Virus record (IMG/VR): IMGVR_UViG_3300020442_001774
Span: 1-24,244 of that record
DNA: 24,244 nt
Direction: 5' to 3' (one strand)
Source of the DNA: a virus
Shown: in pieces, positions 441 to 18,934 of the stretch
Position numbering within the stretch: position 1 is the first letter of the stretch
Layout: each line of letters opens with the position of its first letter
Program-made: the position numbers and the translations under genes
The notes under the pieces: generated by a model
What the model was told of the DNA's origin: nothing
The model's database searches: none
What the model saw: the letters and a program-made list of their open reading frames with translations, nothing else

Positions 441-720
441 TTATTACTATTCCCTCTATATGTGTGTAACCTAGTTTTAATGCAGCTTGTACTCTTTGCG
501 AACCACGCCAAACAGAATATTGTTTTTCTGCATATGGGACACCACCTACACCTTTTCTAGGTTGCAAAGATATTGTATGTTTTTTTACCTCTATTGGATT
601 TTGCAACTCTTCACCATTTAATAACTCTGGCAAAGGTGTCATAGATTTGATATAATGGATTTTACTTATCTCCAGTATTATCTTTTTTTGGTTGTCCGCT
701 TTCGCCTTCAATAATCTCAT
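433..720 (-). CDS. Small ParB-like protein between gp16 and gp17 (start uncertain)
   Basis: This ORF codes for up to 95 aa. The C-terminal half has WRGSQRVQAALKLGYTHIEG, which resembles the end of a ParB/sulfiredoxin-type N-terminal fold, where a G-x-R-R/Q-x-x-A-A-x-x-L-G stretch is common. The function is unknown. It lacks the helix-turn-helix and dimerisation parts of a full ParB. The start is ambiguous. The ATG at 718-720 overlaps gp16 by 59 bases but has a purine-rich stretch (AGAAGAAAAGAAG) just upstream. The internal ATG at 640-642 (69 aa) avoids the overlap but has no clear ribosome-binding site. The stop overlaps the gp17 start by 8 bases, suggesting coupled translation with the terminase. 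T4 has nothing between genes 16 and 17, so this is an extra gene. Coding status is likely; the fold call is tentative. Confidence 0.55.
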   Translation of the reverse strand: MRLLKAKADNQKKIILEISKIHYIKSMTPLPELLNGEELQNPIEVKKHTISLQPRKGVGGVPYAEKQYSVWRGSQRVQAALKLGYTHIEGIVIND

Positions 721-1138: not shown

Positions 1139-1940
1139 CTTCACCTGTTTGAGGATTATATTTCTTACCATCATTGAAAGTGGATATTGTTGTTGTAAAT
1201 CCAAAATCATCATCTGCGTCAGCAGTAGAAGGATTAGGTGTAATTATAATCCTTTCCTCTCTTGTTTTATCTGCACCAGTATTAGTGTCAGTATATAAAT
1301 CATCTTGTACTTTTTTAATAACTTTTTGATTTTGCATAGGACCAAATAAATAAGTCTTTGCTGTAAAATTTAAAGTATATATAACTGCTCTTCTTGTAGT
1401 AAATGTGCCATCATAACTATCTTCATAATTAACATCATTTAATATAATAGGCACGTCTCTTTTAATTCCTAATTCAGGAACCATATTAATAGTTACCGTA
1501 AAGTCTGGTTGGAAGAACGGTAAAATTTGTTCTACGATAATTAATCCATTCTCTGCCGTTGCTGTGAAAATGTTAAGGGTATAACTTACGTTGTACGGCA
1601 CAGGTGTATAATTAAAGTTTAAAACTTTACCGTCTTCACCGGTCTTAACTTGTCTAAACTTTTGCATTTTATTAATCTTCCTACTAGGGTCATAAGTTAA
1701 ACCATTCATTTCAAATCCCATTCTAGGAAGTTTTTGTGCAAATTGTCTATTATCTAAATTAGATTGTTCGTCTAATCTAACTAAAAATTTTTCTTTAGGT
1801 GCATATGCTAAAGGCACTCTATATCTTTTGGTAACTGCACCTGTTGAAGATGTATTTTGTACAATAACATTATTAAACAATTGACCAAAAGCAATTGTTA
1901 ATCTTCTAATACCTTCGTTATAAAAATGAGAACCAAACAT
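1131..1940 (-). CDS. gp15: Tail sheath stabiliser / completion protein gp15
   Basis: This 269-aa protein opens MFGSHFYNEGIRRLTIAFG. It then has RVPLAYAPKEKFLVRLDEQ, a pattern typical of T4 gp15 (N-terminal MFG-x-YN, then a RVP-I-x-YA-x-K-E segment). In T4, gp15 forms the hexameric ring that caps the finished tail tube and sheath and joins it to the neck. The length is close to T4 gp15. The start ATG (1938-1940) overlaps the gp14 stop by one base (TAATG), and a GGAGAGG sequence lies about 11 bases upstream inside gp14. Downstream, its stop overlaps the gp16 start by 8 bases. Gene order and sequence agree, so the call is strong. Confidence 0.93.
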   Translation of the reverse strand: MFGSHFYNEGIRRLTIAFGQLFNNVIVQNTSSTGAVTKRYRVPLAYAPKEKFLVRLDEQSNLDNRQFAQKLPRMGFEMNGLTYDPSRKINKMQKFRQVKTGEDGKVLNFNYTPVPYNVSYTLNIFTATAENGLIIVEQILPFFQPDFTVTINMVPELGIKRDVPIILNDVNYEDSYDGTFTTRRAVIYTLNFTAKTYLFGPMQNQKVIKKVQDDLYTDTNTGADKTREERIIITPNPSTADADDDFGFTTTISTFNDGKKYNPQTGEDE

Positions 1941-2761
1941 TATTCGTCAACCTCTCCAAAAGGATTTCTTTCTGTAAAATCTAGTATGTCATCTGCTGTA
2001 CCCACCGTATCATAACCTGCTTCTGTATTCATATCTAAATTTTTTGCATAAGGTGATTGTTGTTGTATTGTTTCTGTGCCTTCAAAAGTTTCTAACATTA
2101 ATAATGCCTTTTGACCAGTAGCATAATCAAAGTAATCTTCTAATTCAATTGAACCATCGCCTGTTAATGCAACTTGACCTGATTCTAAACCAACTTTGTG
2201 ATTTAAAGTGTTTAGTGAAAACTTATCTTCAGCTTGGTCAAGTATTTCTTGACCTGTATTAATTTCTTCGCTAGAGTATTCAAATCTTGATACTCTCAAT
2301 TTGTAAACTGGTAAATTACCTAATTGAAAGAATGGCTCTTGGTCTTCAACAAAAGTAATTTCAAAAAATGAATTCATTAAAGGTAAATAAATTATATCAC
2401 CTTCATTCGGTCTGCCAACTGCAATTAAATTTGCCTTACTAGCAACGTGTTCCTCAAATCTACGTTTAGAAACAACCAATGTTGTGTCTTCTCTTATTTC
2501 TAAACCAAATTTGTTAATTAATTCTTGTTCACCTGCAAAGCCTTCAGTTGTTTCAAAATACATTTCAATCATATACGAGTCATCAAAACGACTTGTAGTA
2601 TCTTCGCCTAAAACTAAATCTCTATTGACTAATGTTCGTGGTAGGTAATATACGTCTTGACCGTATATTTTTAATCCCTCAATGATAAGGTCTTCGTGTA
2701 GTCTTTTTTCGGCAGTATTTCCGATACCTTTACCGCCTTGAAAGTAGTGATTGATTGCCAT
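1940..2761 (-). CDS. gp14: Neck protein gp14
   Basis: This 273-aa protein starts MAINHYFQGGKGIGNTAEK and continues with KIYGQDVYYLPRTLVNRD, DSYMIEMYFETTEGFAGE and KFGLEIREDTTLVVSKRRF. These stretches are typical of gp14 in T4-like cyanophages. In T4, gp14 sits with gp13 in the head-tail connector region and completes the head for tail joining. It lies 4 bases after gp13, with AGGATAG just upstream of the ATG, and shares a TAATG junction with gp15. The C-terminal 60 residues are acidic and of low complexity. No anomaly was seen. Confidence 0.93.
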   Translation of the reverse strand: MAINHYFQGGKGIGNTAEKRLHEDLIIEGLKIYGQDVYYLPRTLVNRDLVLGEDTTSRFDDSYMIEMYFETTEGFAGEQELINKFGLEIREDTTLVVSKRRFEEHVASKANLIAVGRPNEGDIIYLPLMNSFFEITFVEDQEPFFQLGNLPVYKLRVSRFEYSSEEINTGQEILDQAEDKFSLNTLNHKVGLESGQVALTGDGSIELEDYFDYATGQKALLMLETFEGTETIQQQSPYAKNLDMNTEAGYDTVGTADDILDFTERNPFGEVDE

Positions 2762-2765
2762 AACA

Positions 2766-3572
2766 CTATCCTATCATCATTGCTGGATTTAATTCATATG
2801 ATTGTCTTATCTCTTGTTCTAATTTTTCTATGCTATCGCAAGCTTCTTGAAATATTTGTTGACCATTTAAGGTAACACCACCTATCATTTGAACGCCACC
2901 AAATTTTGATAAGTTGGCACCCCATTGTTTTTTAAATAAAGCGGTTACATATCTCTTTAAGAAAATATCATTAAAAACATCTGTATTAGTTGCTGGGTCT
3001 AATTTTCTATAACATTCAATTACCAAATATTCTCCGACTTGTAAATCATTTTTCCAATCCATATCAACATATAATTTATTTTCGTGTTGATTAAATCTCA
3101 TAGGTTTTTCACCTACTAATACGTGGTCTAAAAAATCTAAATGTCTCAATACAACATCATAATTAATTACTGAAGTTGATGAGAAATCATATAGGTCATT
3201 TAATCTTAATTGATATCTTACGTCAAATAGATTTAAATTACCTTTATTTGAAAACGGAAATATATTGATTATAGAAATAATTGAACTTGGTATTGCAAGA
3301 AAATTTTGACCCTCTTTCCAGCTATTGGTAACAGAACCGACCGTAGCAGATTCAGTTGAATCACTTGTCATTCTATCTTTGTCTGCTTGTGTATATTGAT
3401 ATTTTAAATATGTTCTTTTAACACCATCATAATGGTATTGAGTGAAGTATTGCATTGCCTCATCAATTCTATCTTCAAGTTGGTCATCATCTACGTTAAT
3501 CTCAATTACAGGCTTACCTAACGCTCTTAAAGCATATTGTTTTAAATTTTCTCTTGTTGCTGGTTCTGCCAT
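2766..3572 (-). CDS. gp13: Neck protein gp13
   Basis: This 268-aa protein begins MAEPATRENLKQYALRALG. It contains the gp13-like segment PVIEINVDDDQLEDRIDEAM followed by YFTQYHYDGVKRTYLKYQYT, which is common to neck protein gp13 of T4-like marine phages. In T4, gp13 binds at the head-tail connector and is needed for head completion. A consensus late promoter (TATAAATA, 3594-3601) lies directly upstream, and AAAAGGG sits about 9 bases before the ATG. The neck/packaging block therefore has its own late promoter, separate from the bilin cassette before it. The identification rests on sequence pattern and the gp13-14-15-16-17 order. Confidence 0.93.
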   Translation of the reverse strand: MAEPATRENLKQYALRALGKPVIEINVDDDQLEDRIDEAMQYFTQYHYDGVKRTYLKYQYTQADKDRMTSDSTESATVGSVTNSWKEGQNFLAIPSSIISIINIFPFSNKGNLNLFDVRYQLRLNDLYDFSSTSVINYDVVLRHLDFLDHVLVGEKPMRFNQHENKLYVDMDWKNDLQVGEYLVIECYRKLDPATNTDVFNDIFLKRYVTALFKKQWGANLSKFGGVQMIGGVTLNGQQIFQEACDSIEKLEQEIRQSYELNPAMMIG

Positions 3573-3608: not shown

Positions 3609-4313
3609 TTACAAGTAGGGTTGGTTTTCTGAAACAAACGGAAATAGGTTGTCCGAGCAGAATAATTTAATGTCTTCTTCAGGTAATCCAAGAGATTGCA
3701 TAACTCTAGGCGTGTGTGGATTCTTTTGTTGATGTTCAGAATAGTAATTTTGCGCTTTAATTACTTCTTTCATATCTGCTTCGCCTTCGTGATTTCTAAT
3801 TTTATCAATGTAATTATTTAAATTAGATACTGCCATAGTACATATTTTATTTAATTCGTCTTCTTCTCTTACGTTACCAGCGGCTATCATTCCTCCCGAG
3901 AAGATAGCCTTTGCCCAATCTGGTAACTCTCTCTCTTTACTCGGTTTAAACCACTTGTTTTCTTCTATAAACCATTTTGTTAATGGGTGGTCTTTTTGTA
4001 ATAAAGGACTAAAATCGTGAAAGGCGCCGGTGACTTTCTTTTCACCTGCTATAATATCAAAACCATAAATTGGTCCACCATTTGTTAACATAGGCATAAG
4101 GCATAAGTGAGCCATCCATAGACCTTTTGACTCTCTTACATCAACTACATCTAAATGTGCTCTTCTAATATATCTATTGTTCCAGGTTCTATTGACCCAA
4201 CCTAATTTTTCATTGTTGAATCTTTCCATACCTGGTTCTTTATATTCAACCAGATTTTTATTTAAGACTTCAATAGTCTCATTTTGCCACTTGATTAGTC
4301 TTTCCCAAATCAT
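3609..4313 (-). CDS. pcyX: Ferredoxin-dependent bilin reductase, PcyA/PcyX type
   Basis: This 234-aa protein reduces biliverdin IXalpha using electrons from ferredoxin. The family is clear from alignment with remembered PcyA. AHLDVVDV matches MHLELAKV, MAHLCLMP matches LHCVMFP, GPIYGFDIIAG matches LPLFGCDIVAG, FHDFSP matches IADLSP, and the C-terminal YSEHQQKNPHTPRVM matches YCQQQQKNDKTRRVL. The likely catalytic residues are His69 and Asp86, equivalent to PcyA His88 and Asp105. PcyA Glu76, needed for vinyl reduction, is replaced by Asp55. That combination is what I recall for PcyX, the phage group that makes phycoerythrobilin; PebS of cyanophage P-SSM2 is clearly more distant. I chose the ATG at 4311-4313 because AAGGA lies 5 bases upstream; an ATG 33 bases further upstream has no such support. 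It overlaps the heme oxygenase by 35 bases, so the two are coupled. PcyX versus PcyA activity is inference. Confidence 0.88.
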   Translation of the reverse strand: MIWERLIKWQNETIEVLNKNLVEYKEPGMERFNNEKLGWVNRTWNNRYIRRAHLDVVDVRESKGLWMAHLCLMPMLTNGGPIYGFDIIAGEKKVTGAFHDFSPLLQKDHPLTKWFIEENKWFKPSKERELPDWAKAIFSGGMIAAGNVREEDELNKICTMAVSNLNNYIDKIRNHEGEADMKEVIKAQNYYSEHQQKNPHTPRVMQSLGLPEEDIKLFCSDNLFPFVSENQPYL

Positions 4314-4881
4314 ACATTTCCTTAAATAGTTTTGTTGCACTTTCAAAACAAAATATTGCTTCTGGCAACACGTTTACCTCATATAAATTTAAATAACTTT
4401 CAACTCTTTCTTTTACAATTCTTTTATATTCTTTTGCCTCATTGTGTTTAAATATATAGTATCTATTAGGTCCAGGTGTCTTTCTTTTAATCATCTGACC
4501 ACCTGACAAATCACCTAAATGTCTAACATATATGTGAGCATATAGTTTTTCATTTTCACCTCTAATAGTATCTAAATGTTCAACATATGCTTTTGTACTT
4601 TCAGTTTCTATTGGCGGACTGCCGATATCTCCCCACAATGCTCTGTAATCATAAAATATATGTTCAGCTCTTGGTAGATTTAAAGTGTCTAAAAACAAAG
4701 AACTTTCTAAACAATATTGTTCTAATTTAGAATAACACTTTAATTGATTATATAAGTATGTTGCATATAGTTTTTCATCAATAGTACCTGATAATAAAAG
4801 TCTAACAAAGTCTTGTCGCTCGGCGTTCTTATGATATTCCCAAGTTAACTCTTTTATTCTATATTTTTTTTCTTGTTCCAT
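4279..4881 (-). CDS. ho1: Heme oxygenase (biliverdin-forming)
   Basis: This 200-aa protein is slightly shorter than cyanobacterial HO1. It would cleave heme to biliverdin IXalpha, CO and iron using ferredoxin as reductant. His17 in LTWEYHKNAE fits the proximal heme ligand (family pattern T-x-x-x-H-x-x-A-E). The distal helix carries the diagnostic GDLSGGQ at residues 123-129, within YVRHLGDLSGGQM. The C-terminal helix has FCFESATKLFKEMYDLG, resembling the family's A-F-x-x-x-x-x-x-F-x-x-L end. The ATG (4879-4881) shares a one-base TAATG overlap with the 248-aa gene, and no strong ribosome-binding site is visible, so reinitiation is likely. Its 3' end overlaps the bilin reductase. The substrate-product chain (heme to biliverdin to reduced bilin) matches the ho/pebS pair in cyanophage P-SSM2. 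The family is secure; regiospecificity is inferred. Confidence 0.95.
   Translation of the reverse strand: MEQEKKYRIKELTWEYHKNAERQDFVRLLLSGTIDEKLYATYLYNQLKCYSKLEQYCLESSLFLDTLNLPRAEHIFYDYRALWGDIGSPPIETESTKAYVEHLDTIRGENEKLYAHIYVRHLGDLSGGQMIKRKTPGPNRYYIFKHNEAKEYKRIVKERVESYLNLYEVNVLPEAIFCFESATKLFKEMYDLGKTNQVAK
4319..4323 (-). promoter_or_regulatory. Ribosome-binding site deciding the bilin reductase start
   Basis: The minus strand reads AAGGA, 5 bases before the ATG at 4311-4313 and inside the heme oxygenase coding region. It favours this start over the in-frame ATG at 4344-4346. Confidence 0.65.
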
Positions 4882-5627
4882 TAATCAACTTCAATTTCTA
4901 AATGTGGTTTTTCTCTTTTCCATCTATCTTCTAATTTTAACGTATCTAATATTTTTGTTTTATCTAAAGGGTAGTCTTCAGGTAATTCATCTGATACACT
5001 ACCATATTTTTTAAACTCTTCTATTTTTCTTAAATTATCTTTTTCTCTCCAGTCACCAAACTCTTTTGTTTGTATAAAATCATCTTTTGTTTTCATAAAG
5101 TAATCAGCTAATGAAATAAATCCACTTACAACACGAATTCTTGCTAATGAAAATTCTCTAGGTTTGTAATCTTTTAAGGGTTTTAAAAATGCTCCTATAT
5201 CTTCTTCACTTACATTTAATACTTGTTTAAATAAATCAACGGTACAACCATATATTACTTGATAAGAAAACCAATCTTTTTCCCAAAATGTTCTATTAAG
5301 TAATTTTGCTGGAGTATTAAACTTATAATCTTCGCCTAACTTATGAATTAAGTCTGTTGTATGAGGCATTTTAGGCATTGCTGGCGCACCACCTATTTTA
5401 TAGTTTCTAATTTGAAACGGCCATAATTTTTCCCACTTTTCTAATATTACTTGTCTTTGATTGTGGTGTTCAAAATCAACAGCATTCATCATTGTTTCAA
5501 AATGATTAATAATCCACCATACTTGATACCAGTATGTTGCCTGCATTTCTTTTGGATATGATTGAAATTTATCGCCGAATATATCGTGAGATTGAAATTT
5601 TAAATAGTTTTGTTTCGTTTTGTACAT
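4881..5627 (-). CDS. Unrecognised 248-aa protein leading the bilin cassette
   Basis: I do not recognise this family. The protein is soluble-looking, without signal peptide or membrane segment, and rich in Trp, Tyr and Phe (for example YWYQVWWIINHFETMM near residues 32-47). Its composition suggests a mainly helical fold. There is essentially one cysteine (in YGCTVD), so it is neither a ferredoxin nor a classical Cys-linked bilin carrier. A His pair (EHHNQ) and a Gly/Pro/Met stretch (IGGAPAMPKMP) are the most distinctive local features. GGAG lies 5 bases before the ATG. Its stop overlaps the heme oxygenase start in a TAATG junction, so it is co-translated with that gene and probably shares its pathway: a bilin-binding, chaperone, or redox-partner role is possible but is only inference from position. 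It is not similar by eye to CpeT, PebA/B, or any T4 neck protein. Confidence 0.8.
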   Translation of the reverse strand: MYKTKQNYLKFQSHDIFGDKFQSYPKEMQATYWYQVWWIINHFETMMNAVDFEHHNQRQVILEKWEKLWPFQIRNYKIGGAPAMPKMPHTTDLIHKLGEDYKFNTPAKLLNRTFWEKDWFSYQVIYGCTVDLFKQVLNVSEEDIGAFLKPLKDYKPREFSLARIRVVSGFISLADYFMKTKDDFIQTKEFGDWREKDNLRKIEEFKKYGSVSDELPEDYPLDKTKILDTLKLEDRWKREKPHLEIEVD

Positions 5628-5664: not shown

Positions 5665-5667
5665 ATT
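5660..5667 (-). promoter_or_regulatory. Possible late promoter for the bilin cassette
   Basis: The minus strand reads AATAAATA, seven of eight matches to the T4 late consensus TATAAATA. It lies 33 bases upstream of the 248-aa gene and overlaps the fibre stop codon and the hairpin. If real, it lets the heme oxygenase/bilin reductase cassette be expressed late, together with virion genes. Confidence 0.4.
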
Positions 5668-7909
5668 AGTCTTGTGGCGATGAAGCCATATGAGCACGAT
5701 AGTTATTACTTCCCCAAGATGAACCAGTTGTTGCCTGATATCTGTAAGGCATAATTGAGAACATATAAGTTTGGTTATTTGGTTGATAACCTGAAGTAAA
5801 CAATTTACCATCTTGGTTTCTGTAATAATAATTCATTGCTGTCGGATAACCGTAAGAACCAAAGTCAACTATTCTACTATTACAAGGTTGTACAGCTCTT
5901 CTTTTTCTATGTCTGTTTTCAGTATTAGATTCAAAACCTTGAGCCATATCCATTTGATAACCATTGTGGTTACTATCAGGATTATCATTTGCTAATGAAG
6001 GGAACCATTGGTAACCGTAATTATTACCGTACCAAATTGAACCATCTTCATCTAATATACCTGGTGAGTCATAAATGTATGAACCATCACCTCTGCTAGA
6101 GTTTTGACCTTGAATATATCTTACGTATTTTGGTCCTCTTAAATGAGAAAACATTCCGTGAATTCCGCCTGATTGATACCAGTAACCTTGTTGTACTCTT
6201 GAACCTCTAGTACCATATGTTCCGTAGTTACCATCATTTACCCATAACATACCTGTTGATTTTTGTCTAATGTACATCCATTTATTTTCATCACCACCAC
6301 ACCAGAATTCATCAACATCACCGTTTAAGTGAAAATCACCTCTTTGGAATTGAGCAGTATATTCTGTATTGTTATCACCAATACCAAACATACCTGGAAC
6401 TTGTCCGCTTGTCATATAACCTGTGTACCACATATAGCCTTCGCCATCTAGTACCCAAGTACCTGCGTGACCTTGTCCGTCATAAGACCAATGTTGTAAT
6501 AATTTCATACCACCATACATATTCCAATTAATTTCAACTCTTCTTGGAATGTAGTAGTAATAAGTACCTTGAGAAGTATGAGAATTCATACCAACTCCTA
6601 GGCAACCGTAAACGTCTTGTCCCCAAGCCCATAAGTAACCGTCTTCATCAAGAGCGTGCCAATACATTTCTTCGTTACCTGAGCCCCACATATCAACAAT
6701 TCTTTTGTTGTTAAAAAATTGTTGAGGAATTTTAATTGGTCTTCTTATAGCGGCAGAATAGAATGAGAATGAATAAGGCGAACCACCGTTAGTATCAGTT
6801 GAGTTGTTGATACTAGGATTACCAAAACCAGCTTGACCTTGGTCGTTGTGTCCCCAAATCCAAACTGAACCATCTTCACCTAATGACCAAATTTGTTTAC
6901 CGTTTGAATTGTGTCCTTGAGAAGTTGTACCAACTTTTACCATTTTTGTATCGTTAAAAGAACGTATTGTATCTCCTAACCAATCAACCGTATCACTCGC
7001 TGATACTCTGTTTGTATAACTTCTATTTGATGAGTTTGTATTACCACCCTCGTTGTAACCTAATTGATAATGACCATTGTAACCTGAAGCATAAACTTCA
7101 CCGTTATTCATTAGCCAAATACTAAAGTTATGACCTGTACACCATTGAATACATTTTGGTGCCTTACCATCAGGCGTTACCATATGACCTGTAAATTCGT
7201 GGTCTTTTGCGTGGTCTTTATTATCTGTTGATGTTCTCCAATCAATGTGTGTGAAACCTGACATATGTGGTCTACCTTGTCTACCATCACCACTCATATC
7301 ATCACCTGTCCCCATCATTCCAGTATCATCATTACCACCCCAACGCATTGCGTCACCGTTAGACATAATAACACCTAATGAATAGTGTTGAGACATTTCA
7401 TTATTGTTTCTACCCATATTGTACTTCCAACCTAAAGGAGCTCTGTTAGTGTACGATACGGTTTTATTTCTGTCTGGATATGCAAATGGTGACTCGTAAA
7501 TCATTATCCAATATTCACTAGGTTCACCTCTGTGTTCTTCAACCCAAGTATTATAACGTCTTGTTCTTTTTATACATTGGTAAATTCTTCTACCAACTGA
7601 ACACATTTCGCCTGGCTCATATTGTCTCCAAAATTCCCATTCACCAATATCGTCTGTTGAACGTAGGAATAATTGCCAGTATTTTGGGTTATCAGGTCTA
7701 AAAGACTTTTGGACTATTCTCATTGGGTCCATAGAATAGTTATTTGTGTTAACTAGGAAATCACCTGATAATGTATATGCGATAGGACAATCTCTTATAC
7801 ATCTATAAGATTTTCCTTTCCACATAACAATATCATTCTTGGAGTAAGCTGTTCTATCTCTCCAAGGACCTTGCCATTTAAGTTTAAATTCGTTTAATTC
7901 AAAAGCCAT
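5666..7909 (-). CDS. Giant tail-fibre/adhesin with RCC1-type propeller (747 aa)
   Basis: This is a virion fibre-like protein and the shortest of three paralogues. Residues 8-40 form a small beta module (KWQGPWRDRTAYSKNDIV then GKSYRCI) resembling carbohydrate-binding CBM5/12-type folds. A second, degenerate copy follows near residues 91-150. From about residue 174 to the end there are roughly eight RCC1-like repeats with cores such as GSVWIWGHNDQGQAGFG, GYLWAWGQDVYGCLGVG and GEVYASGYNGHYQLG, predicting a beta-propeller of about seven blades. Between the first two blades lies an insertion with WRTSTDN, also present in the 1053-aa paralogue. It is probably a receptor-binding tip or decoration. 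It sits just upstream of the bilin cassette. The start ATG has AAAGG about 11 bases upstream. The architecture is clear; the virion location and ligand are inferred. Confidence 0.85.
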   Translation of the reverse strand: MAFELNEFKLKWQGPWRDRTAYSKNDIVMWKGKSYRCIRDCPIAYTLSGDFLVNTNNYSMDPMRIVQKSFRPDNPKYWQLFLRSTDDIGEWEFWRQYEPGEMCSVGRRIYQCIKRTRRYNTWVEEHRGEPSEYWIMIYESPFAYPDRNKTVSYTNRAPLGWKYNMGRNNNEMSQHYSLGVIMSNGDAMRWGGNDDTGMMGTGDDMSGDGRQGRPHMSGFTHIDWRTSTDNKDHAKDHEFTGHMVTPDGKAPKCIQWCTGHNFSIWLMNNGEVYASGYNGHYQLGYNEGGNTNSSNRSYTNRVSASDTVDWLGDTIRSFNDTKMVKVGTTSQGHNSNGKQIWSLGEDGSVWIWGHNDQGQAGFGNPSINNSTDTNGGSPYSFSFYSAAIRRPIKIPQQFFNNKRIVDMWGSGNEEMYWHALDEDGYLWAWGQDVYGCLGVGMNSHTSQGTYYYYIPRRVEINWNMYGGMKLLQHWSYDGQGHAGTWVLDGEGYMWYTGYMTSGQVPGMFGIGDNNTEYTAQFQRGDFHLNGDVDEFWCGGDENKWMYIRQKSTGMLWVNDGNYGTYGTRGSRVQQGYWYQSGGIHGMFSHLRGPKYVRYIQGQNSSRGDGSYIYDSPGILDEDGSIWYGNNYGYQWFPSLANDNPDSNHNGYQMDMAQGFESNTENRHRKRRAVQPCNSRIVDFGSYGYPTAMNYYYRNQDGKLFTSGYQPNNQTYMFSIMPYRYQATTGSSWGSNNYRAHMASSPQD

Positions 7910-8386: not shown

Positions 8387-11300
8387 TTACCTGCCGTGCC
8401 CTTGGTTATAAGCAAAGCCTGAAGTTGAAGTCCAACCGTGAGTCCACCAGTTGTGACCAGTACACCAGTTGTTTCTTCCCCAATGATAAATTTTTCCGTG
8501 TTCATCTGTAAATCTGTAACCACCAGCATATTCAGCTGAACCTTGGTCATCTGTTGTAATGTGCATATTTCTTACTCTTGCACCAGCAGGTGTCCACCAA
8601 GTAAATGGATAGTAGTTTGAACCATCTTGTTGATAATTACTTCCTGCGTGACCATTCAACATAGAATTTCTTGAATCATAACCAAAATTCCAAGCTTTTC
8701 CGCTATCTTCAATCCAGAATGTTCTACCTTGGTCTGAATAACTACAAGATATAGAAACTTCTTTACAATTTTTTACATTTTGAACTTGCGTTGGTGATGT
8801 TTGGTTACCAGTTTGACCTGTACCAAGATTGTAATAACCACCTGAATATCCCCAACCGTACATTGTTCCGTCTTTGTGTCTACCAAAAGCAGATTTGTAA
8901 CCATTCCAGTACATAGTCCATATGTCAACAAAGTCACCGTTAGGTGCTGTCTCAATTTTAGTTAATTGAGATAAGTTTGAAGTATTACCATTACCAGCAT
9001 TTCCGTAGTTATTGTGGCCTGTAAACCAAGTATAACCATTTCCATCTAGTAAAGTAACCCAAACGTCATTTGATTGACCAGATATTTGCCATACTGCGAT
9101 ACCATTGTTAGAACTTGGATCCCAATTTGCCATTTTTACAGGTCTGTATTTGTCTGTTGTAGTGTTATCACCTAATTGACCATTACCGTTTCTACCAAAA
9201 GAATACAAAGTATCACTAGCTGTTCTTACATAAGAACTTTGGTCTGTACAAGCAATGTCTATAATTTTTTCGTTGTCAAAATATTTTGCTGGTATTCTGT
9301 AAGGTGCTGGTTTATTTTGTGTTCTACCATCACCAATTTCACCGTAACCGTTATAACCCCAAGTCCACACACAACCTGAATCGTCTAGTGCCATTGTGTG
9401 GTGAGTATTATTTGACCATTGACTTTCAGCAGTCTTAATAATTTTTACGTCTTCTAAACCTAAAACTCTCATATATGCTTCTTGGTCGCCTTGCTCGTGC
9501 CCAACTCCCATTTCACCATTTGAGTTTTCACCGTTTTTGTAAACTTCTCCGTTATCAAATAGAACACTTGAACGTGACCTACCTTCTTGAATTTGAATAC
9601 ATCTAGGTGTTGTTAAAGGTTTTCTAACCGTACTTCTATTTCTACCTCTGTTTTCATTGTAACCTGTGTAGTTTAAATCTTCACTTCTCCACCAATCTCT
9701 CCATCTAATATTAATTTCTTCGTAGTATGAAGCATAGTAAGCACCATTTTGTTGGAAACCATTTCTAGGATAGTTAATACCCCATAATACACCGTTTTTA
9801 TCAATGTGTCTGTAAACGTTATCATCATTTAAAGATGTTGCTGTGTAGTGTTTATACGGCCAATGTATAGGACCTTTGTTACCATACCAAGCATTTGCCT
9901 CTTCAGCTTGGTTAACTTGTCTACCAAAAGATTCCCAATCGTTCCAGTATGACTGAATGTGTGCTGGGTATTCTTGATATTGTTTTCTAATTAATTTACC
10001 ACTTGTTGTTGTAGATTTTGTTCTTAAAGGCGACACGGTAACATCTTGAGGACCATAGTGAGGAGGTCTACCGTGTGAGTCTCTAATACATCTGTAAAGT
10101 CCTGTTGGACCTTGAGGTGATATTTCACCATCTGATAATCTTTTTTCTGGTCTGTAAATTACAACATCATTGTAGCTGTAGTGGTGGTCTGGATTATATT
10201 TACCACAAAATTTAATACCTGTTTGTAATCTGTCCCAATGTTTGTAACCTCTCCAAGACTCTTCTACGTCCCAACCTAAATCAGAATACATATCTGCTTT
10301 TGTTGCCGCTGAGTCTAAACAGAAAGGATAAATTTTTGTACTTCTTGTTTTAAAGAAACCTACTGGAATATAAATTTCAACTTGTCTATCTTGATTTTTC
10401 TTCCAAGAATATACTTGACCACCTCTTGTTTCACCATTTTCAGTAGTGTATGCTGGCATATCACCAGTATAAGCATTGCCTTCATTTGGTATAGTATCAG
10501 CAAAAGTTTCTTTATATTGTGTTTCTGTAACCTGTTTATTGTTTAAGAAGTATCTAACTAAACCATTTTTGTTAGCACCTTTGTACATAGGAATGTTTGA
10601 AGGCACATAACTTCTTGCTCTTGAACTTGGTGTAATTGTGTCTGCTGACCAACCCATACCAGAGTGTTGTGAGCAATAGTAGTATAATTTGTCAATACCT
10701 TTTCTAACTTTAATTTCTGTAAACGCACCTTTTTTACCTGGTGTTCCTACCGTTCTAACACCTGTTGTGTACTCTGAACCTGAATTATGTGTACCATTTT
10801 CAGTTGTAGAAAATCTTAAAGGGTGATTTAAGTTTGAAGCGTCTGATTGGTCAAATCTATAAGTTTTACCCTCTACTAAATTTAAGGTTACATCTGCTGT
10901 AGCAGTTGAACCATTGATAGAATATTTGTTTGTAGAACCTGTATTATAGTATGGGTGGTTACTAGGGTTACCACTTACTACTGCAACCTCAAATATTCTT
11001 TCATCAACAGCAGTTGAGTCAATCATATCTGGTAAATAAAAGTTTGTAGAACTTTCATTGTTTACCGTTTCGTTGTTAGGTCCTCTTGTAATTTCTGTAA
11101 AGTTTACAACTGCACTTGCACCTGCACCACCTAATCTTGTATCTTCAGCGTTTGCACCTGCAGCTGATAGATATAATGGGTAGAAAACTCCAGTATCGCC
11201 AGTTGAAGTTGTACCTACTACAAAGTATGGTCCATCTTCATCATTAGCTAATGAAGTACCTGGTGTTGAGTTATGAATACCATCAGCAGTTGTTGAAAAT

Positions 11301-12013
11301 CCTAATGGGAAAGTTTTATTAGTTTCGTGTCTTTGATTAAATCTGTATTTGTAACCTTCTTTGAAATGTGTAAAGGTTCTCCAACCACCACCTTCGCCAC
11401 CAAAAGAGTTTCTACCAAGTGTATTACTTGCAACTCTATTGTCAATTTTAAATTTGTTTGACGGAGATGTTTGTATCTCTACGTGAAAGTTATTCTCTAC
11501 CGGTACATAGTTTTGGTAGAATTGAATTTTGTTTGTGTTTAACTCACCATAACCAAAAAAGTTACCAGGGTCACCCATTGCGTAAGTTTCATTGTCTTCT
11601 AATAAGTGTGATTGATAATCTAAAAAGTAACCACCGTTATTTGAGTTATTGTTAAAGTAATCTGCTTGACCAAATCTTTGACCATTTCTAGTTGACTCTT
11701 GCGTATTTTCATCATTACCGTATCTTGAAGTATTGATTACAGGATTACCTGTTTCATTACTTCTTTGGAAGTCATCTTCCATAACGTGGTAACCTCTACG
11801 TCTGTCCGGGTCATTTGAGTATGTTCTTGTCCAGTAATAACCTGTGTTCTTATCACCTGGCGCCATATTGTCGTAACCATTTGACAAGTAAGGATTTGTA
11901 CAAATCCATAGAGAGTTATTGAACCAACAAACATCATCTTTACGATAGTTTGTATTTGCGTTCCAATCTCCTTGGAATGCGAATTTTACTCTTCCTAAAT
12001 TAATTTTTGCCAT
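8387..12013 (-). CDS. Giant tail-fibre/adhesin with cupredoxin-like domain and RCC1 propeller (1208 aa)
   Basis: Domains in order are as follows. Residues 8-38 are a carbohydrate-binding-like module (KFAFQGDWNANTNYRKDDV). Residues about 181-310 and 363-456 are two related beta domains of cupredoxin type. Residues about 460-600 are an unassigned region. Residues 598-645 hold a second small module ending GLYRCIRD. An RCC1-type propeller runs from about 733 to the end, with cores such as GCVWTWGYNGYGEIGDG and LYSFGRNGNGQLGDN. The second cupredoxin-like domain has NHPLRFSTT (His397) and YYYCSQHSGMGW (Cys447, His450, Met453), the ligand types of a mononuclear copper site. The first lacks them (KTFPLGFSTT). 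It is probably a distal tail fibre that contacts the host surface. A near-consensus late promoter lies at 12032-12039. It is paralogous to the 747- and 1053-aa proteins. Confidence 0.87.
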   Translation of the reverse strand: MAKINLGRVKFAFQGDWNANTNYRKDDVCWFNNSLWICTNPYLSNGYDNMAPGDKNTGYYWTRTYSNDPDRRRGYHVMEDDFQRSNETGNPVINTSRYGNDENTQESTRNGQRFGQADYFNNNSNNGGYFLDYQSHLLEDNETYAMGDPGNFFGYGELNTNKIQFYQNYVPVENNFHVEIQTSPSNKFKIDNRVASNTLGRNSFGGEGGGWRTFTHFKEGYKYRFNQRHETNKTFPLGFSTTADGIHNSTPGTSLANDEDGPYFVVGTTSTGDTGVFYPLYLSAAGANAEDTRLGGAGASAVVNFTEITRGPNNETVNNESSTNFYLPDMIDSTAVDERIFEVAVVSGNPSNHPYYNTGSTNKYSINGSTATADVTLNLVEGKTYRFDQSDASNLNHPLRFSTTENGTHNSGSEYTTGVRTVGTPGKKGAFTEIKVRKGIDKLYYYCSQHSGMGWSADTITPSSRARSYVPSNIPMYKGANKNGLVRYFLNNKQVTETQYKETFADTIPNEGNAYTGDMPAYTTENGETRGGQVYSWKKNQDRQVEIYIPVGFFKTRSTKIYPFCLDSAATKADMYSDLGWDVEESWRGYKHWDRLQTGIKFCGKYNPDHHYSYNDVVIYRPEKRLSDGEISPQGPTGLYRCIRDSHGRPPHYGPQDVTVSPLRTKSTTTSGKLIRKQYQEYPAHIQSYWNDWESFGRQVNQAEEANAWYGNKGPIHWPYKHYTATSLNDDNVYRHIDKNGVLWGINYPRNGFQQNGAYYASYYEEINIRWRDWWRSEDLNYTGYNENRGRNRSTVRKPLTTPRCIQIQEGRSRSSVLFDNGEVYKNGENSNGEMGVGHEQGDQEAYMRVLGLEDVKIIKTAESQWSNNTHHTMALDDSGCVWTWGYNGYGEIGDGRTQNKPAPYRIPAKYFDNEKIIDIACTDQSSYVRTASDTLYSFGRNGNGQLGDNTTTDKYRPVKMANWDPSSNNGIAVWQISGQSNDVWVTLLDGNGYTWFTGHNNYGNAGNGNTSNLSQLTKIETAPNGDFVDIWTMYWNGYKSAFGRHKDGTMYGWGYSGGYYNLGTGQTGNQTSPTQVQNVKNCKEVSISCSYSDQGRTFWIEDSGKAWNFGYDSRNSMLNGHAGSNYQQDGSNYYPFTWWTPAGARVRNMHITTDDQGSAEYAGGYRFTDEHGKIYHWGRNNWCTGHNWWTHGWTSTSGFAYNQGHGR

Positions 12014-12031: not shown

Positions 12032-12039
12032 TATTTATC
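12032..12039 (-). promoter_or_regulatory. Possible late promoter upstream of the 1208-aa fibre
   Basis: The minus strand reads GATAAATA, seven of eight matches to TATAAATA, 18 bases before the ATG at 12011-12013. It overlaps the end of the preceding fibre gene. The purine-rich AAGAGAG follows as a likely ribosome-binding site. Confidence 0.4.
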
Positions 12040-15000
12040 CTAAAATTGGTGGACTAGGTATTTGTCTTCCTTGTCCGTTAGTATTTCCCATCATATAACT
12101 TCCGCCATAACCGTGTAGATAATATCTATTATCATAAGTTTTATATTCCCAAAAAGCATAAATTGTGTCAGAGTTATCTCCGTAACCACAACCTCTTACA
12201 TCTTCAACGTTACCTTGCATTGAAGGAGGTAATCTCATTGGCATAAAGTAACCATTACTAAAATGCTCTTTTAAGTTTTCTGCGTTTCTGTCTGCTGTTC
12301 CGTTAGTAGAAGTCCAACCAAAACCACATTGACCTCTTCTATTATCACCTGTAGCATACATCATTCCGTCCCAAGTTAATATCTTCGTACTTAAATCGTT
12401 ATAGTGAGGGAAGAAAGAAACCATTTTAACATTTTTAAAATCTCTTGTTGTACTTGAACCTAATTGGAATTTAGGGGTCACAAATCCACTTCTATCTGTA
12501 TTTGAACCATCACCTAGTGAGTAATGGTTATTGTAACCAGCACATTGAAGATTACCTAATGAATCTTCTACCCACATTTGAGTATATGAACCGTTACCTC
12601 CCATCCAGAAATTTTCACAATCTGCATTTGAAGCATTACCTGGACCATTTGAACAAATTGTCCAAGTGTTTAAGTGTGTTGTATTACCATTTCCCATCCA
12701 ACCGTGGTCATTTTTACCAGTTGTGTAAATTGTTCCTCTTTCAGTCAAGATAGCGCAATTACCATCTGAAGAACGAGCAGTACCTTGAACTTTTTTAATT
12801 TCTCCTACACCAGTACCGTCAAAAGTTTGAGTTGTTACCTCTTGAGGAGAACTTTGGTTTGTAGTATTACCGATACCTAATTGTCCGTTACCGTTATAAC
12901 CCCAAACATATAATTTTTTCTCTTTTGTATATGCCATTGCCCAAGTATATGACTCACCAAAAGTCCAAAATGCCTCTATTTCACTATTGTTAAAGTTAGT
13001 TGCTTTATCAATTTTTACAGGAACACTTTGGTTAGATGTATTACCATTTCCTAACTGACCATATCCGTTATAACCCCAAGACCATAATTCGCCGTCTTCA
13101 TCTATTGCATAACAAGAGTGAGTGTTATCGTTATAACCTTGCCAGTTTGATATGAAACATCTTTTAATTCTTACACTTCTAAATACGTGGTTTGAATCGT
13201 TAGCAGCTAAGTAAACGTTTGTATCTGAACCACCAACTCTTACTGGATAATCTCTGTTTGAAGTTGAAGCGTCACCTGATTGACCGTGACCACCATAACC
13301 CCAATGATATAATTCACCAGAATTCATAAGAGCCATACCTGACTCATAACCACCTTCTAATTGAATAATTTTAGGAACTTCTCCATCTGGTGTTGTGTGA
13401 ACACCTGTACCACCATTGTCTGTACTTCTCCACCAATCATAGTGAGAGAATGACATTTGAGTAGCAGTCATAAATGTTTGGTTAAATCCGTTTTGACCTG
13501 TTGAAGCACTACCCCAAGACCATACGTTACCTGTACCACCGTGGAATGCTGGCCAATCTACGCAATGTCTTGATGTTCTTTGACCTGATAATCTGAAATA
13601 TTTGTTGTCATCACCTAAAGGACCATTGTTCATTAATGATACACATTCGTGAGGATTACCTGTATAGATTGTTGCCATACCTCTAGTTTGTTTTCTAGTT
13701 GTAGCAACTTGACAAGTTAAATCTGCACCACCACCAAATATATCTCCGTCAAAAGTTAGAGTATCACCAACAACATTGTTTTCACCACCTGAAATCATAC
13801 CTGTGTCATTGAAATATCTTCTATGTCTTTGTGAATCTCTGTTTTCTCTTTCTACTTCAATTGTAGCTGTACCTGCAACACCAACTCCGTTTACAGAGAA
13901 ACTAAAGTCAGCAGCACCACCGCCACCTAATGAAGCGTCAGCGATTGTTAATTGTTCATCATCAACATATCCTGAACCACCTGTTGGTGTAGTTGATTTA
14001 TTTCTTGTTTTAATAATTTCTATTTTGGTAACTGCACCATTTGTACCAACCGTAATATCAAAAGTAGCACCTGTTCCAACACCTGTTGTTGCTGATTGTG
14101 AAACGTTTGTATATTTACCTGCTGTTCTTGAAGAGTCAGCAGCTGCAAAATTATCAACTGCTAAAATGTTACCATCACCTTGAACTGAAATTTTAAACAT
14201 ACCTGGATGTACGTTAGTAGCTGAGTTTGATGTAGATTTAGGAGATACATTTCTGAATACTCCGTGTTTTCTATTTGCGTCAGCAGCTGAAATATTATTT
14301 ACGGTTTCAATTACACCGTTATTTTCATATCTTTCATCATCTGATTCATATTCAGCACCCATTTTCATCCAATACATATTTGCATTAGTGTCAACATTTC
14401 TGTTGTAAGGTAAAAATCTTTCTGTACCATCTGTTGTGTGTTGTCTTAAACAGATATAAGTTGATAAAGTTTCTTTCTTTGATTGACCCTCGTAATCTGT
14501 ACCTTGGTCATTATTAATTCCGTGTCTAACTTTTACAACATCATTTTCATAGTAAACCGTACCACTTGTATTTACGTGGTTGTCTCTCCATTTAAATGAG
14601 TTTCTTAAAGGTCTCCAAGTATCCCAATCTGCAACTACAATTTTAGCACCATAACTTGCGCCACCTGTACCAGCAGAGAAGTAATAAATTTCATCTGGTG
14701 TATCTTTTGTAAACTCTACAACTACTTTTCTAGCAGTTTTAGGATTAAATTTTGCTGTTGTTGTGTAATCTGATTGAGAAACTTGTTCCTCATTGTGATA
14801 ATAAGAAACACCTTCAGTTAAATAATTTGAAGTTTGACTTGTAGCAGTTGTTGATAATGCTAAAGGTTGGTCATCATTATTGTTATTGTTTTGGTAAAAA
14901 GTAATTTTATCACCTCTTCTTACATATAGAGGAGTTGCCCACTCAATAGTAGAAGTTTCATCAGCGTCTATTTGAAATTTTGTTGTTGAATCGTTAGGGT

Positions 15001-15196
15001 CAGTTGTTACCTGAATGTTATAATGATATTGAGTATTTTGTTGTGGTCTTTTACCAGTTGTATCAGACTCTCTAATCATTAAGTAGTCAGTATTATTCCA
15101 TAATACGATATCGTCTTTTTTATAAGCGACAGAATTATCGTATTCGCCACGATAATTAAACCATAAATTTCCGATTTTTGTTCTAGTTATTGCCAT
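12035..15196 (-). CDS. Giant tail-fibre/adhesin with RCC1 propeller (1053 aa)
   Basis: Domains in order are as follows. Residues 10-42 are the shared carbohydrate-binding-like module (WFNYRGEYDNSVAYKKDDIV). Residues about 62-189 are a cupredoxin-like beta domain that has lost its metal ligands (DQPLALSTT and IYYFSAGTGGASYG). A second module lies near 195-255 (YYENDVV, STYICLRQH). Gly-rich beta segments lie at about 310-500, including GGSGYVDDEQLTI, a repeat style common in marine T4-like fibres. An RCC1-type propeller runs from about 510 to the end, with the clearest repeats of the set (LWSWGYNGYGQLGNGNTSNQ and LYVWGYNGNGQLGIGNTTNQ). An exact late promoter at 15206-15213 and AGGAT before the ATG indicate its own late expression. 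Its role as a receptor-binding fibre is inferred from architecture and from its position in the tandem of paralogues. Confidence 0.87.
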   Translation of the reverse strand: MAITRTKIGNLWFNYRGEYDNSVAYKKDDIVLWNNTDYLMIRESDTTGKRPQQNTQYHYNIQVTTDPNDSTTKFQIDADETSTIEWATPLYVRRGDKITFYQNNNNNDDQPLALSTTATSQTSNYLTEGVSYYHNEEQVSQSDYTTTAKFNPKTARKVVVEFTKDTPDEIYYFSAGTGGASYGAKIVVADWDTWRPLRNSFKWRDNHVNTSGTVYYENDVVKVRHGINNDQGTDYEGQSKKETLSTYICLRQHTTDGTERFLPYNRNVDTNANMYWMKMGAEYESDDERYENNGVIETVNNISAADANRKHGVFRNVSPKSTSNSATNVHPGMFKISVQGDGNILAVDNFAAADSSRTAGKYTNVSQSATTGVGTGATFDITVGTNGAVTKIEIIKTRNKSTTPTGGSGYVDDEQLTIADASLGGGGAADFSFSVNGVGVAGTATIEVERENRDSQRHRRYFNDTGMISGGENNVVGDTLTFDGDIFGGGADLTCQVATTRKQTRGMATIYTGNPHECVSLMNNGPLGDDNKYFRLSGQRTSRHCVDWPAFHGGTGNVWSWGSASTGQNGFNQTFMTATQMSFSHYDWWRSTDNGGTGVHTTPDGEVPKIIQLEGGYESGMALMNSGELYHWGYGGHGQSGDASTSNRDYPVRVGGSDTNVYLAANDSNHVFRSVRIKRCFISNWQGYNDNTHSCYAIDEDGELWSWGYNGYGQLGNGNTSNQSVPVKIDKATNFNNSEIEAFWTFGESYTWAMAYTKEKKLYVWGYNGNGQLGIGNTTNQSSPQEVTTQTFDGTGVGEIKKVQGTARSSDGNCAILTERGTIYTTGKNDHGWMGNGNTTHLNTWTICSNGPGNASNADCENFWMGGNGSYTQMWVEDSLGNLQCAGYNNHYSLGDGSNTDRSGFVTPKFQLGSSTTRDFKNVKMVSFFPHYNDLSTKILTWDGMMYATGDNRRGQCGFGWTSTNGTADRNAENLKEHFSNGYFMPMRLPPSMQGNVEDVRGCGYGDNSDTIYAFWEYKTYDNRYYLHGYGGSYMMGNTNGQGRQIPSPPILG

Positions 15197-15220: not shown

Positions 15221-18200
15221 TTACTCGTTGCTAGGAGTTTCTACACCTTGTTCAGCGTCTCCTGTTGTTCTATAAATTAAATTTCCTGCTTTGTCAATTT
15301 CAATTCTAACAGAGCCGTTAATTACATCAAAACCTGCGTTTTGTTCAGCAGCATTAAATAATGTATCTTCATATTGATTTACAACGTTAAAGTTAGTTAT
15401 TACTTTTCTGTTTAATTGTCCTGTATCTCTATCAAAAGATAATGTTTGTAAATTAGGAGTTACCGAACTATCAACATAATTTTTGTTTACTAAATGATTT
15501 GCCAAAGTTGGCGCCACACTTGTTTGTGGTATTGTTGTAAATGTTGTTGTATTACCTGTTGAAGCAGATATGTTTGCTCCTGATATTGTAATTTCACCAA
15601 TTACAGCAGAGTTAACGGTCAAGTTGTTTTGACCACCACCAAGTTGGTTTTCAACGAATGTTCTAATTGCCTTCTCGGTTACGAGAGCGTTATCAGAATT
15701 ATCACCTAAAGTACCATCTGTTGAGAATTCATTTACGGTTGCACCAAAATTTCCTAATGCAACTGAACCTAGAGATAATTGTCTTAATCCAGAAAGGTCA
15801 AAAGCTTCTGCGTTCAATGTTGCCTTACCTGTTGATTGTTCTACTCTAAACAATTCACCAACTCTAAAGTTACCATCTTGGTCGGTTGATGTATAGAATA
15901 CTCTACCTCTATCTAAATCTTCTACTTCATCTGCTTGGTCAGGTGCTTGTGTATATCCGTTTAAGTCTGGATAATTTGTTGTTGCAATACCACCTGTACC
16001 AATATCTAGGAAGTCGTGACCTGTTAATCTTATATTTGAATAGTTTTGTCTAATTGTAGCAGTTGTTCCGTGTGTTGGAGCATTTGCTTTTGAAATATTA
16101 GGCGAAACTTCTAAATTTGTTATACCACCATTTGCGTGTGATAATACGGTTACTACAATATAACTTTGTGTAGCATTTGCAAAAACTATATTTGAACCAG
16201 GTTTTGGAGCAGCCGATAAACCTGAAGTTTTGACCGTTGCACCTACTGGTAAAATATCAGCATAACCATCACCGCTTACGGTACCTGCTGTGTTTTCTTG
16301 TTTATAACCTGAACCTGCAGCTACATATTGCCATCTTGAAATTACACCATCACCAATTGACGCTGTACCTGTTCCTAATGTTGTTGCGTTAGGGTCAGTA
16401 ATTGTTATTGAAGGCGCTGATGAATAACCTGCACCACCATCAATGATTAAGAATTTTTTAATAATTTGGTTTTCAATTACAACTCTTGCTAATGCATTTC
16501 TTGTAGGAGAACCACCGCCTGTGATGGTTACTCTTGGTTCAATTTCGTAGTTTGTTGTTGCGTTAGGAGCAACTGCAACACTTGTTGGACCAAATACATC
16601 AAAACCTGCTGAACCGTCTTCTTTATAAACCGTAGCAGTTTTAGTTGCTGAAACATAATCTCCGATATAAGCAGTTTGACCTGAACCAGTACCACTTGTA
16701 ACCGTAATTCTCATACCGTTATAGAAGTCATCTGGTTGTGTATCGGCAGCCGCTAATCTAATTGTAGTTGTTGAACCACCTTGAGCAACACCAATGGTTG
16801 TAAAGTGACCTGAACCATTAGTGGTTACATCAATATGTTTTACTGCACCGTCAGCAAAGTCGGCAGTAAAGTTAGCATTTGCGCCTGAACCTGTAATTGT
16901 TTCTGTAGCAGATGTATAAGTTTCACCTGCGTATTCTTGTTCTAATCTGTAAACACCAGCGTTTGATACTAATGCTCTACCAATGATTGCCTCATTGTCT
17001 CTTGTAGTTACCGTTGTTGTTACCGGTGTTTCGTTAGGGTCAACACCTGAAGCAACAGAACCTTTTTCACCATAAGAGTTGTTAGAGTTTAGTGAACGCA
17101 TTACACCACCTGAATCTGCAAGATAACCAACGTGGCAGTAATAAGTAAATACAGATACTAATTCTGATTTAGCACCGTTTAATATCCAAACACCGATACC
17201 GTTATCAATTACCTGTGTAAAGTCATTTGCAAGAATTGATTTGTTACCTGCGTTGTGTAAAGAACCATCAATCTTAATACCAATTGCTCTAGTACCTAAT
17301 GATGAGCAGTTTTGTACAAAAGGTGACCTTGCAACAATGTGAACTGAAGTATCAGTAGGACCTGTTCCTGGGTCAAGAGCACAAACAACACCTGTTGCTG
17401 TTGCGCCTGTACTAGTTGTTGGTCTTGTAATACCATCTGAACTTGGCGAACCTGCTAATTGACCTGTCATACCACTAAACGTCATACCAGATAATGTACA
17501 AGAGTCATTTAATCTAAACATTGTCTGTCTGTTATTTGGTGTTGAACCATCACTTGAAATACCTGCACCAGAACCATTGTCTGTTGTAGTATCAGGTGAA
17601 ACGGTAACACTTCGTAAGTTATCACCTATAATAGCAGTTTTTCTTCCTACTCTAATTGGTAATTGTTCAGTATATGTTCCTGTTGCAACTTTAATTGTTT
17701 TGAAATTTGTTGAATCAGCAAATGTTTGAGCACAAGCATAGTTTAATGTTCTCCAAGGTAATTCAGGAGAAGAACCTCTGCCTGTATCTGTATTATCTAC
17801 ACCTGAAGTAGATACGTAATAAACTTTTTGTGATACGTTTGGTAATGCCCAAACAATATCTGTACCATCTGATTTTAGGAAAGTACCAGCAGCGCCGATT
17901 GGTAATCTAACTCGTTGAGTTGCGTCTCTTGTTAAAATATCACCTCTTGTAGTTAGAGTTGCGTTTGAATCTCCTTCTGCAAGTAAGTCCCAATCAGTTT
18001 GACCTGAAACATCTGGTCTGTTTGAAGCAGATGATGTGTGATTTGTTTTTGCTCTATATGAAGATGAGCCGTGTGATACTGCGTCACCAATTTTGTAATC
18101 TGTACCTGAACTCCAGTTATTTCTCCAATATAAACCTTCAACAACTAAATCCCAATATGAGTTAGTTGTACCTGTTGGTTCTTGACCTGTACCATCAATT

Positions 18201-18934
18201 TTAGCCACATAATAATGACCACCGTGATTAACGGTATCTCCAGTTTTATATGCTGTAGAGTTTGACCAAGTACCTGTATTAGTAAATCCTGTTGATAATA
18301 ATTTCCAATCTGAAGAGTTGTTATAAGGTATAACGTTATTGTTTGCTCTTTCTGCAACGTATTGATAACCACCGTAGGTAACAATGTCACCTAATTGGTA
18401 TAAAGTTGAAGATGACCAAGAATTTTCAAATTCTAGTCCTGATACGAATAAAGTAAATTTTGTTTCATCTAAAGTTGTACCTGAAGATGTATGTTGAGTT
18501 GTACATAGATATGTGTTTGCACCATATTTAACTATGTCATCATTTCTGTAAGATGTTGAAGTTTGCCAATCACCTCTCCAAGCTAAACCAGCAGCGAATG
18601 TTTGCCACTTAGCATTGTCATCATATAAGTCTGCTTGTGAAGTATGTCCTGTTAAACATCTGTATGTTGAACCACCAAAGGTAACAATGTCGTCAACTTT
18701 GTAAAGAGTTGTTCCCTGCCAGTTTCCTTTGTATTCAAAACCGCCGGCCATTTTTGCCCATTTAGGCGTTGCGTGGTTTAAGTCTGTGTAAAAATCTGCT
18801 GACGCTGTATGGTTTACTTTACATACAAACGCATTACCACCATATGTAAGTACGTCATCTTTGATATAAGCGGTTCCGGTAGTCCAAGACCCTTTAAAGT
18901 GAAACTTTAGTCTACCTAGTACAAAATCTGCCAT
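15221..18934 (-). CDS. Giant tail fibre with six carbohydrate-binding-like repeats and beta-helix (1237 aa)
   Basis: Residues about 10-322 hold six tandem modules of about 52 aa, each with a W-x-x-x-T-x-Y-x-x-x-D-x-V-x-x-G-x-x-Y core. A linker with TRGDILTRDATQRVRLPIG follows. Residues about 371-650 look like a right-handed beta-helix of the pectate-lyase type (YYVSTSGVDNTDTGRGSS, PWRTLNYACA, KVATGTYTEQLPI). Gly-rich segments (GGGSPTRNA, GGAGYSSAPSITI) run to about 960. The C-terminal part has GRVFYTSTDQDGNFRVGELF and LVNKNYVDSSV, motifs widespread in fibres of T4-like marine phages. It is probably a long fibre or baseplate-attached adhesin. Unlike the next three genes it has no RCC1 propeller. 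AGGAA lies 8 bases upstream of the ATG; I saw no late promoter in its 20-base upstream gap, so it may be read with the preceding 148-aa gene. Confidence 0.87.
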   Translation of the reverse strand: MADFVLGRLKFHFKGSWTTGTAYIKDDVLTYGGNAFVCKVNHTASADFYTDLNHATPKWAKMAGGFEYKGNWQGTTLYKVDDIVTFGGSTYRCLTGHTSQADLYDDNAKWQTFAAGLAWRGDWQTSTSYRNDDIVKYGANTYLCTTQHTSSGTTLDETKFTLFVSGLEFENSWSSSTLYQLGDIVTYGGYQYVAERANNNVIPYNNSSDWKLLSTGFTNTGTWSNSTAYKTGDTVNHGGHYYVAKIDGTGQEPTGTTNSYWDLVVEGLYWRNNWSSGTDYKIGDAVSHGSSSYRAKTNHTSSASNRPDVSGQTDWDLLAEGDSNATLTTRGDILTRDATQRVRLPIGAAGTFLKSDGTDIVWALPNVSQKVYYVSTSGVDNTDTGRGSSPELPWRTLNYACAQTFADSTNFKTIKVATGTYTEQLPIRVGRKTAIIGDNLRSVTVSPDTTTDNGSGAGISSDGSTPNNRQTMFRLNDSCTLSGMTFSGMTGQLAGSPSSDGITRPTTSTGATATGVVCALDPGTGPTDTSVHIVARSPFVQNCSSLGTRAIGIKIDGSLHNAGNKSILANDFTQVIDNGIGVWILNGAKSELVSVFTYYCHVGYLADSGGVMRSLNSNNSYGEKGSVASGVDPNETPVTTTVTTRDNEAIIGRALVSNAGVYRLEQEYAGETYTSATETITGSGANANFTADFADGAVKHIDVTTNGSGHFTTIGVAQGGSTTTIRLAAADTQPDDFYNGMRITVTSGTGSGQTAYIGDYVSATKTATVYKEDGSAGFDVFGPTSVAVAPNATTNYEIEPRVTITGGGSPTRNALARVVIENQIIKKFLIIDGGAGYSSAPSITITDPNATTLGTGTASIGDGVISRWQYVAAGSGYKQENTAGTVSGDGYADILPVGATVKTSGLSAAPKPGSNIVFANATQSYIVVTVLSHANGGITNLEVSPNISKANAPTHGTTATIRQNYSNIRLTGHDFLDIGTGGIATTNYPDLNGYTQAPDQADEVEDLDRGRVFYTSTDQDGNFRVGELFRVEQSTGKATLNAEAFDLSGLRQLSLGSVALGNFGATVNEFSTDGTLGDNSDNALVTEKAIRTFVENQLGGGQNNLTVNSAVIGEITISGANISASTGNTTTFTTIPQTSVAPTLANHLVNKNYVDSSVTPNLQTLSFDRDTGQLNRKVITNFNVVNQYEDTLFNAAEQNAGFDVINGSVRIEIDKAGNLIYRTTGDAEQGVETPSNE
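17969..18901 (-). repeat. Six tandem ~156-base repeats coding carbohydrate-binding-like modules
   Basis: The repeats encode residues about 12-322 of the 1237-aa fibre. Copies begin near FHFKGSW, EYKGNW, AWRGDW, EFENSW, TNTGTW and YWRNNW. Each carries a conserved Asp in a D-x-V/I pattern and an aromatic near its end. The first three keep a Cys (VCKV, RCLTG, LCTTQ) and an HT pair, while copies 4-6 replace the Cys with Ala. Protein repeats are clear; DNA identity has decayed, so the expansion is not recent. Confidence 0.8.

Follow-up and report, generated by a model that had tools for sequence, protein, structure and literature searches.

The window, that is, the whole stretch of DNA analysed here, is a virus record of 24,244 bases whose gene content is that of a T4-like myovirus. 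The genes of the terminase small subunit, the tail sheath stabiliser gp15 and the neck proteins gp14 and gp13 occupy positions 662-3572, all on the minus strand, and this gp15/gp14/gp13 neck-tail block is adjoined by a row of long fibre genes. In published pelagimyophages the tail fibres form a variable host-recognition cluster beside gp14 (PMC7029224), a layout that the fibre row adjoining gp14 in the window fits. The minus strand also carries an adjoining bilin-making pair, a ferredoxin-dependent bilin reductase and a heme oxygenase (3609-4881; Pfam E 1.4e-15 and 7e-19), and, next to the heme oxygenase, the gene of a 248-aa protein (4881-5627) that has no match in Pfam or PHROG. A TauD-family dioxygenase is encoded at 23054-23851 on the plus strand, opposite to the structural genes.

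The fibre of interest is a 1208-aa protein encoded by an open reading frame at 8387-12013 (minus strand). Its residues 343-467 are matched by PHROG tail-fibre families, and RCC1-like repeats are found in its C-terminal part, at about residues 798-1121 (Pfam RCC1, E 1e-23). Repeats of this type lie toward the C-terminus in three adjacent fibres (5666-7909, 8387-12013 and 12035-15196, minus); the PHROGs label of the RCC1-like families, "regulator of chromosome condensation" in DNA metabolism, looks misleading for tail proteins. The fibre encoded at 15221-18934 (minus) has five CBM_5_12-like stretches, and a similar W..Y..D.V motif, perhaps a common attachment module, opens the other three fibres.

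After the N-terminal region of the 1208-aa fibre and before its RCC1-like repeats, and hence not at either terminus, lies a domain that an earlier, sequence-only reading had described as cupredoxin-like within residues 363-456, pointing to the motifs NHPLRFSTT and YYYCSQHSGMGW. Both motifs are present at those residues and the domain is real, but it is longer than claimed: its first strand lies near residue 337, and the domain spans residues 337-460, or about 10634-11005 on the minus strand. A family HMM, made mostly from ligand-bearing copies, with ligand-free ones possibly under-sampled, matches residues 355-457 at E 4e-44. The four residues that had been proposed as a type-1 copper set could be assigned to their codons, all on the minus strand, and are kept across relatives. 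They comprise His397 (CAC, 10823-10825), the N-terminal copper-ligand candidate, which aligns with the corresponding His of cupredoxins, and a candidate ligand loop between the last two strands (Cys447-x2-His450-x2-Met453, 10655-10675), made up of Cys447 (TGC, 10673-10675), His450 (CAC, 10664-10666) and Met453 (ATG, 10655-10657). The pattern H-x45-60-C-x2-H-x2-M is present in just 0.16% of shuffles of the 1208-aa protein. The residue after His397 is Pro (HP); small blue-copper proteins usually have Asn (HN) after the first His ligand.

Degenerate copies of the domain occur in the same gene cluster. The first copy of the domain in the 1208-aa fibre itself (residues 196-258 aligned; 11240-11428, minus; family HMM E 1e-14) has Phe in place of the His and no recognisable ligand loop, a pattern ("F---") seen in 15 loci. 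Another, in the neighbouring fibre of 12035-15196 (14642-15010, minus; family HMM E 2.8e-19), has Gln, Ser, Thr and Tyr-type residues in place of the ligands, with QSTY or NSNY in relatives of that fibre.

The domain was modelled by AlphaFold2 with a pLDDT of 91 from 24 related sequences, and with a pLDDT of 96.3 and a pTM of 0.89 from 85 diverse sequences, with 8-9 strands. In the model, His397 stands just before a strand, Cys447 ends the second-last strand, His450 lies in the loop and Met453 comes just before the last strand, which is the order of these four residues in cupredoxins. When the 85-sequence model was compared with the PDB by Foldseek, ranks 1-12 were all cupredoxin-fold proteins, headed by pseudoazurin, a pseudoazurin into which an amicyanin loop had been engineered, and copper nitrite reductase, and the 24-sequence model likewise had mostly cupredoxins on top. 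The top matches were weak (E 0.005 and up, TM-score about 0.42-0.55), with antibody and titin domains further down the lists. The predicted fold is thus consistent with a cupredoxin, but the match is weak, and because of these E-values and TM-scores the case for a cupredoxin is not rested on it.

Searches of Pfam, NCBIfam and the PDB with the window domain as a single sequence retrieved no cupredoxin, and no match to Pfam PF00127 or PF13473 was obtained at E <= 1 or E <= 10. In a Pfam scan of 24 family members PF00127 appeared once, at E 0.17, and a PDB profile search gave one pseudoazurin at E 1.3; the best PDB profile matches, ribosomal L31 and antibody chains, were judged to be due to chance. 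The profile of 83 family members was then compared by hhalign with 28 plastocyanin/azurin-type sequences from bacterial genomes, and the two aligned over 79 columns at 94.7% probability (E 6.3e-8) with the four ligands in register, against less than 1% for the Big_2 and reversed-profile controls; COX2 (CuA) sequences did not match the family profile (0.7%). With the four ligand columns masked the probability was 33%, versus 0.6% for the control, indicating some similarity outside the ligands, though these provide most of the signal. Intermediate sequences lead in the same direction. The proximal tail fibre of P-SSM2, a divergent member of the family, matches PF00127 at E 4.8e-4 (20.9 bits, just under the 21.2 cut-off) and PF13473 at E 2.8e-4, and its PDB search has cupredoxins on top (4hcf best, E 8e-4), with Cupredoxin 1, rusticyanin and auracyanin among the matches. 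These comparisons give statistical support to a sequence relationship of the family to known cupredoxins. Some phage copies (L169:15373-15711, L178:2544-2849) are weakly similar to a plant At5g54830-like domain (PF25489, E 0.004-0.02), which may be a relative of the phage domain.

The conservation of the ligands provides a further line of evidence. A first survey found H, C, H and M in 90/90 copies covering the ligands, with some search patterns that themselves contained ligands, and for this reason the search was repeated with queries that stop short of the first His. In these ligand-blind searches all four ligands were found in 79/80 and 27/27 loci, the odd one out being a broken frame, so that every readable copy (106/106) carried the complete set. 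The counts to rely on are the unfiltered and ligand-blind ones, since the hhalign family sets and the filtered family alignment required C-x2-H-x2-M, and the invariance of Cys, His and Met there is by construction; the first His, which the filter did not require, is invariant in that alignment as well. Among 213 full-length copies, a set that includes phage regions picked by tblastn only, each had either four ligands or at most one, and none had two or three. At 70% redundancy, 3 partial cases were counted versus 25 expected under independent site loss, and 0 of 20,000 shuffles were as low, a permutation test that overstates independence because the copies are related by descent (five separate degenerate groups at 50% redundancy). 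The ligand-free patterns seen (KGTL, DSDF, QATH, DATM, KDDY, QSTY, NSNY, YSQM and FSQM) all come from copies matching the family, and six ligand-free copies tested against the family profile gave E-values of 1e-15 to 1e-27, so the fold can be kept without the metal site.

Such all-or-none loss is expected of a metal site and not of packing residues. The point bears on the possibility that the domain is a metal-free, Ig-like structural domain in which Cys, His and Met have a packing role, to which the modest Foldseek E-values, the antibody and titin domains lower down and the very existence of ligand-free copies could be ascribed. For such a role, losses one by one should be the rule, but the copies have lost either none of the four or three or four at once, and the Big_2 control gave no profile match; this explanation is regarded as highly improbable. 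Judged from the alignments and the predicted model, the putative His, Cys, His and Met ligands take the canonical type-1 positions.

The spacing of the loop had been noted as tighter than in plastocyanin (x4 before Met). It is no anomaly but exactly that of amicyanin, as checked in PDB 1aac (His53, Cys92-x2-His95-x2-Met98), and type-1 sites form when loops of amicyanin length are implanted into a different cupredoxin scaffold (PMC7480511). Sequence alone leaves the metal unfixed, and with its Pro following the first His the domain departs from classical small cupredoxins; it could thus be argued that the four conserved residues coordinate a different metal, zinc for instance, or hold copper in a site of the non-blue kind. 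However, Cys-His-His-Met at such spacing is the amicyanin type-1 set and all four ligands are aligned by hhalign, and this alternative is regarded as improbable.

The domain belongs to a large family without a Pfam model of its own. At E 0.01, tblastn retrieved 324 phage records, nearly all from cyanophages, plus phages of Pelagibacter and Methylophilales, in which the domain is carried by tail fibres and by the tail/baseplate proteins gp9 and gp7. The sequence-only expectation that such a domain would be unusual in a phage adhesin must therefore be dropped, as it is widespread among marine phages. In Foldseek comparisons with viral models, giant-virus "beta-sandwich" proteins also match. In marine bacteria, SAR86 among them, copies reside in lipoproteins and in giant surface proteins; several of the SAR86 lipoproteins are small, with little beyond the domain, and in Arcticimaribacter it lies in an open frame of 9219 aa. 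Within the SAR86 order 67/151 genomes have the domain, weak matches counted. Among the bacterial carriers, some short metagenome-assembled contigs, though not the chromosome-scale ones, may in fact be phage DNA that was misplaced. One lipoprotein of about 636 aa that recurs in SAR86 (L217-L220) has one distant copy with His...C-x2-H-x2-M intact; its weak matches had been considered as multicopper oxidases, an assignment that was rejected.

Fold (statistically weak), profile comparison, intermediate sequences and all-or-none ligand conservation thus concur in supporting the cupredoxin reading. The domain is probably a genuine cupredoxin whose mononuclear type-1 copper site is intact (His397, Cys447, His450 and Met453, with an amicyanin-type loop) and which serves as a modular beta-sandwich block in the fibre; from its sequence it would be expected to bind copper. 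Against this count the weak Foldseek scores, the 33% match of the masked profile and the Pro after His397; moreover, we know of no redox partner for tail fibres. Small cupredoxins are usually electron carriers, and on that ground one could envisage a redox role for the domain, in electron transport or in the oxidation of something on the host surface. Neither a partner protein nor a second copper site was seen, however, and the domain is extracellular and repeated, built into giant fibres and adhesin-like proteins. Electron transfer is unlikely for repeated extracellular modules without a partner, and such a role is considered very improbable. A structural or adhesive function for the bound copper, rather than electron carriage, is proposed only tentatively, with a copper-stabilised adhesion or spacer module as the most likely role and copper-dependent docking as a possible one and the chief alternative. 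In such a scheme, the fibre would be made as an apo-protein in the host cytoplasm and its domain would load copper after lysis, with seawater or the host envelope as the source; the bound copper would then fix the ligand loop, and hence the surface shown to the host.

A more specific proposal is that the copper-loaded domain is itself what the host sees, the fibre docking on copper-handling surface proteins or outer-membrane receptors of the host, which would carry the iron Trojan-horse idea for tail fibres over to copper. PMC11705849 sums up an iron precedent in tail fibres, the HxH sites of T4 gp37 and the Trojan-horse hypothesis, and predicted surface lipoproteins of marine bacteria bear the domain as well. 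Nevertheless, there is no known receptor, the domain is also carried by gp9 and gp7, parts of the baseplate for which receptor contact is not necessary, and in the 1208-aa fibre it is internal, between other domains, so that this proposal is rated as fairly unlikely. The broadest form of the idea, that blue-copper centres are routine on the fibres and baseplates of marine tailed phages, are loaded once the host has lysed and offer a copper-bound surface for host recognition, the virions constituting a seawater copper ligand pool, is seen as unlikely.

Returning to the true cupredoxin as the preferred reading, cupredoxins are a known kind of protein, and no earlier description of one in tail fibres or as a virion module was found in the open-access literature, although structural-superfamily databases may already flag the fold. 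On sequence grounds, many ocean virions may carry copper. If the domain binds it, an abundant class of ocean viruses contacts its hosts with parts that bear metal centres, virions join the copper ligands of seawater, and whether phage-tail metals matter for infection becomes directly testable, with the natural ligand-free copies of the same gene cluster as ready-made negative controls. The analysis also names a protein family that lacks a Pfam model and is now annotated as "hypothetical" or "structural".

Among known systems, amicyanin (1aac) and plastocyanin/azurin (PF00127) share with the fibre domain its predicted cupredoxin-like fold and a His before a mid-domain strand, and amicyanin also shares Cys-x2-His-x2-Met between the last two strands. 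They differ in having HN at the first ligand where the fibre domain has HP, and amicyanin is a small soluble periplasmic electron carrier whereas the fibre domain is part of a 1208-aa virion fibre. The closest solved folds to the model are pseudoazurin and the cupredoxin domain of copper nitrite reductase (3ef4, 2ux6, 2dv6), at 6-16% identity and the modest TM-scores already given. The fibre's domain is contained in the PHROG tail-fibre/baseplate families phrog_30742, 27200, 693, 708 and 677, whose annotation is "tail" or unknown, with no mention of copper. T4 gp37 and Alteromonas phage R22Y (PMC11705849) have, like the present fibre, a metal site in a tail fibre, here a predicted one; there, the iron is bound by paired His motifs in trimeric fibres, whereas here a candidate type-1 copper set lies within one domain.
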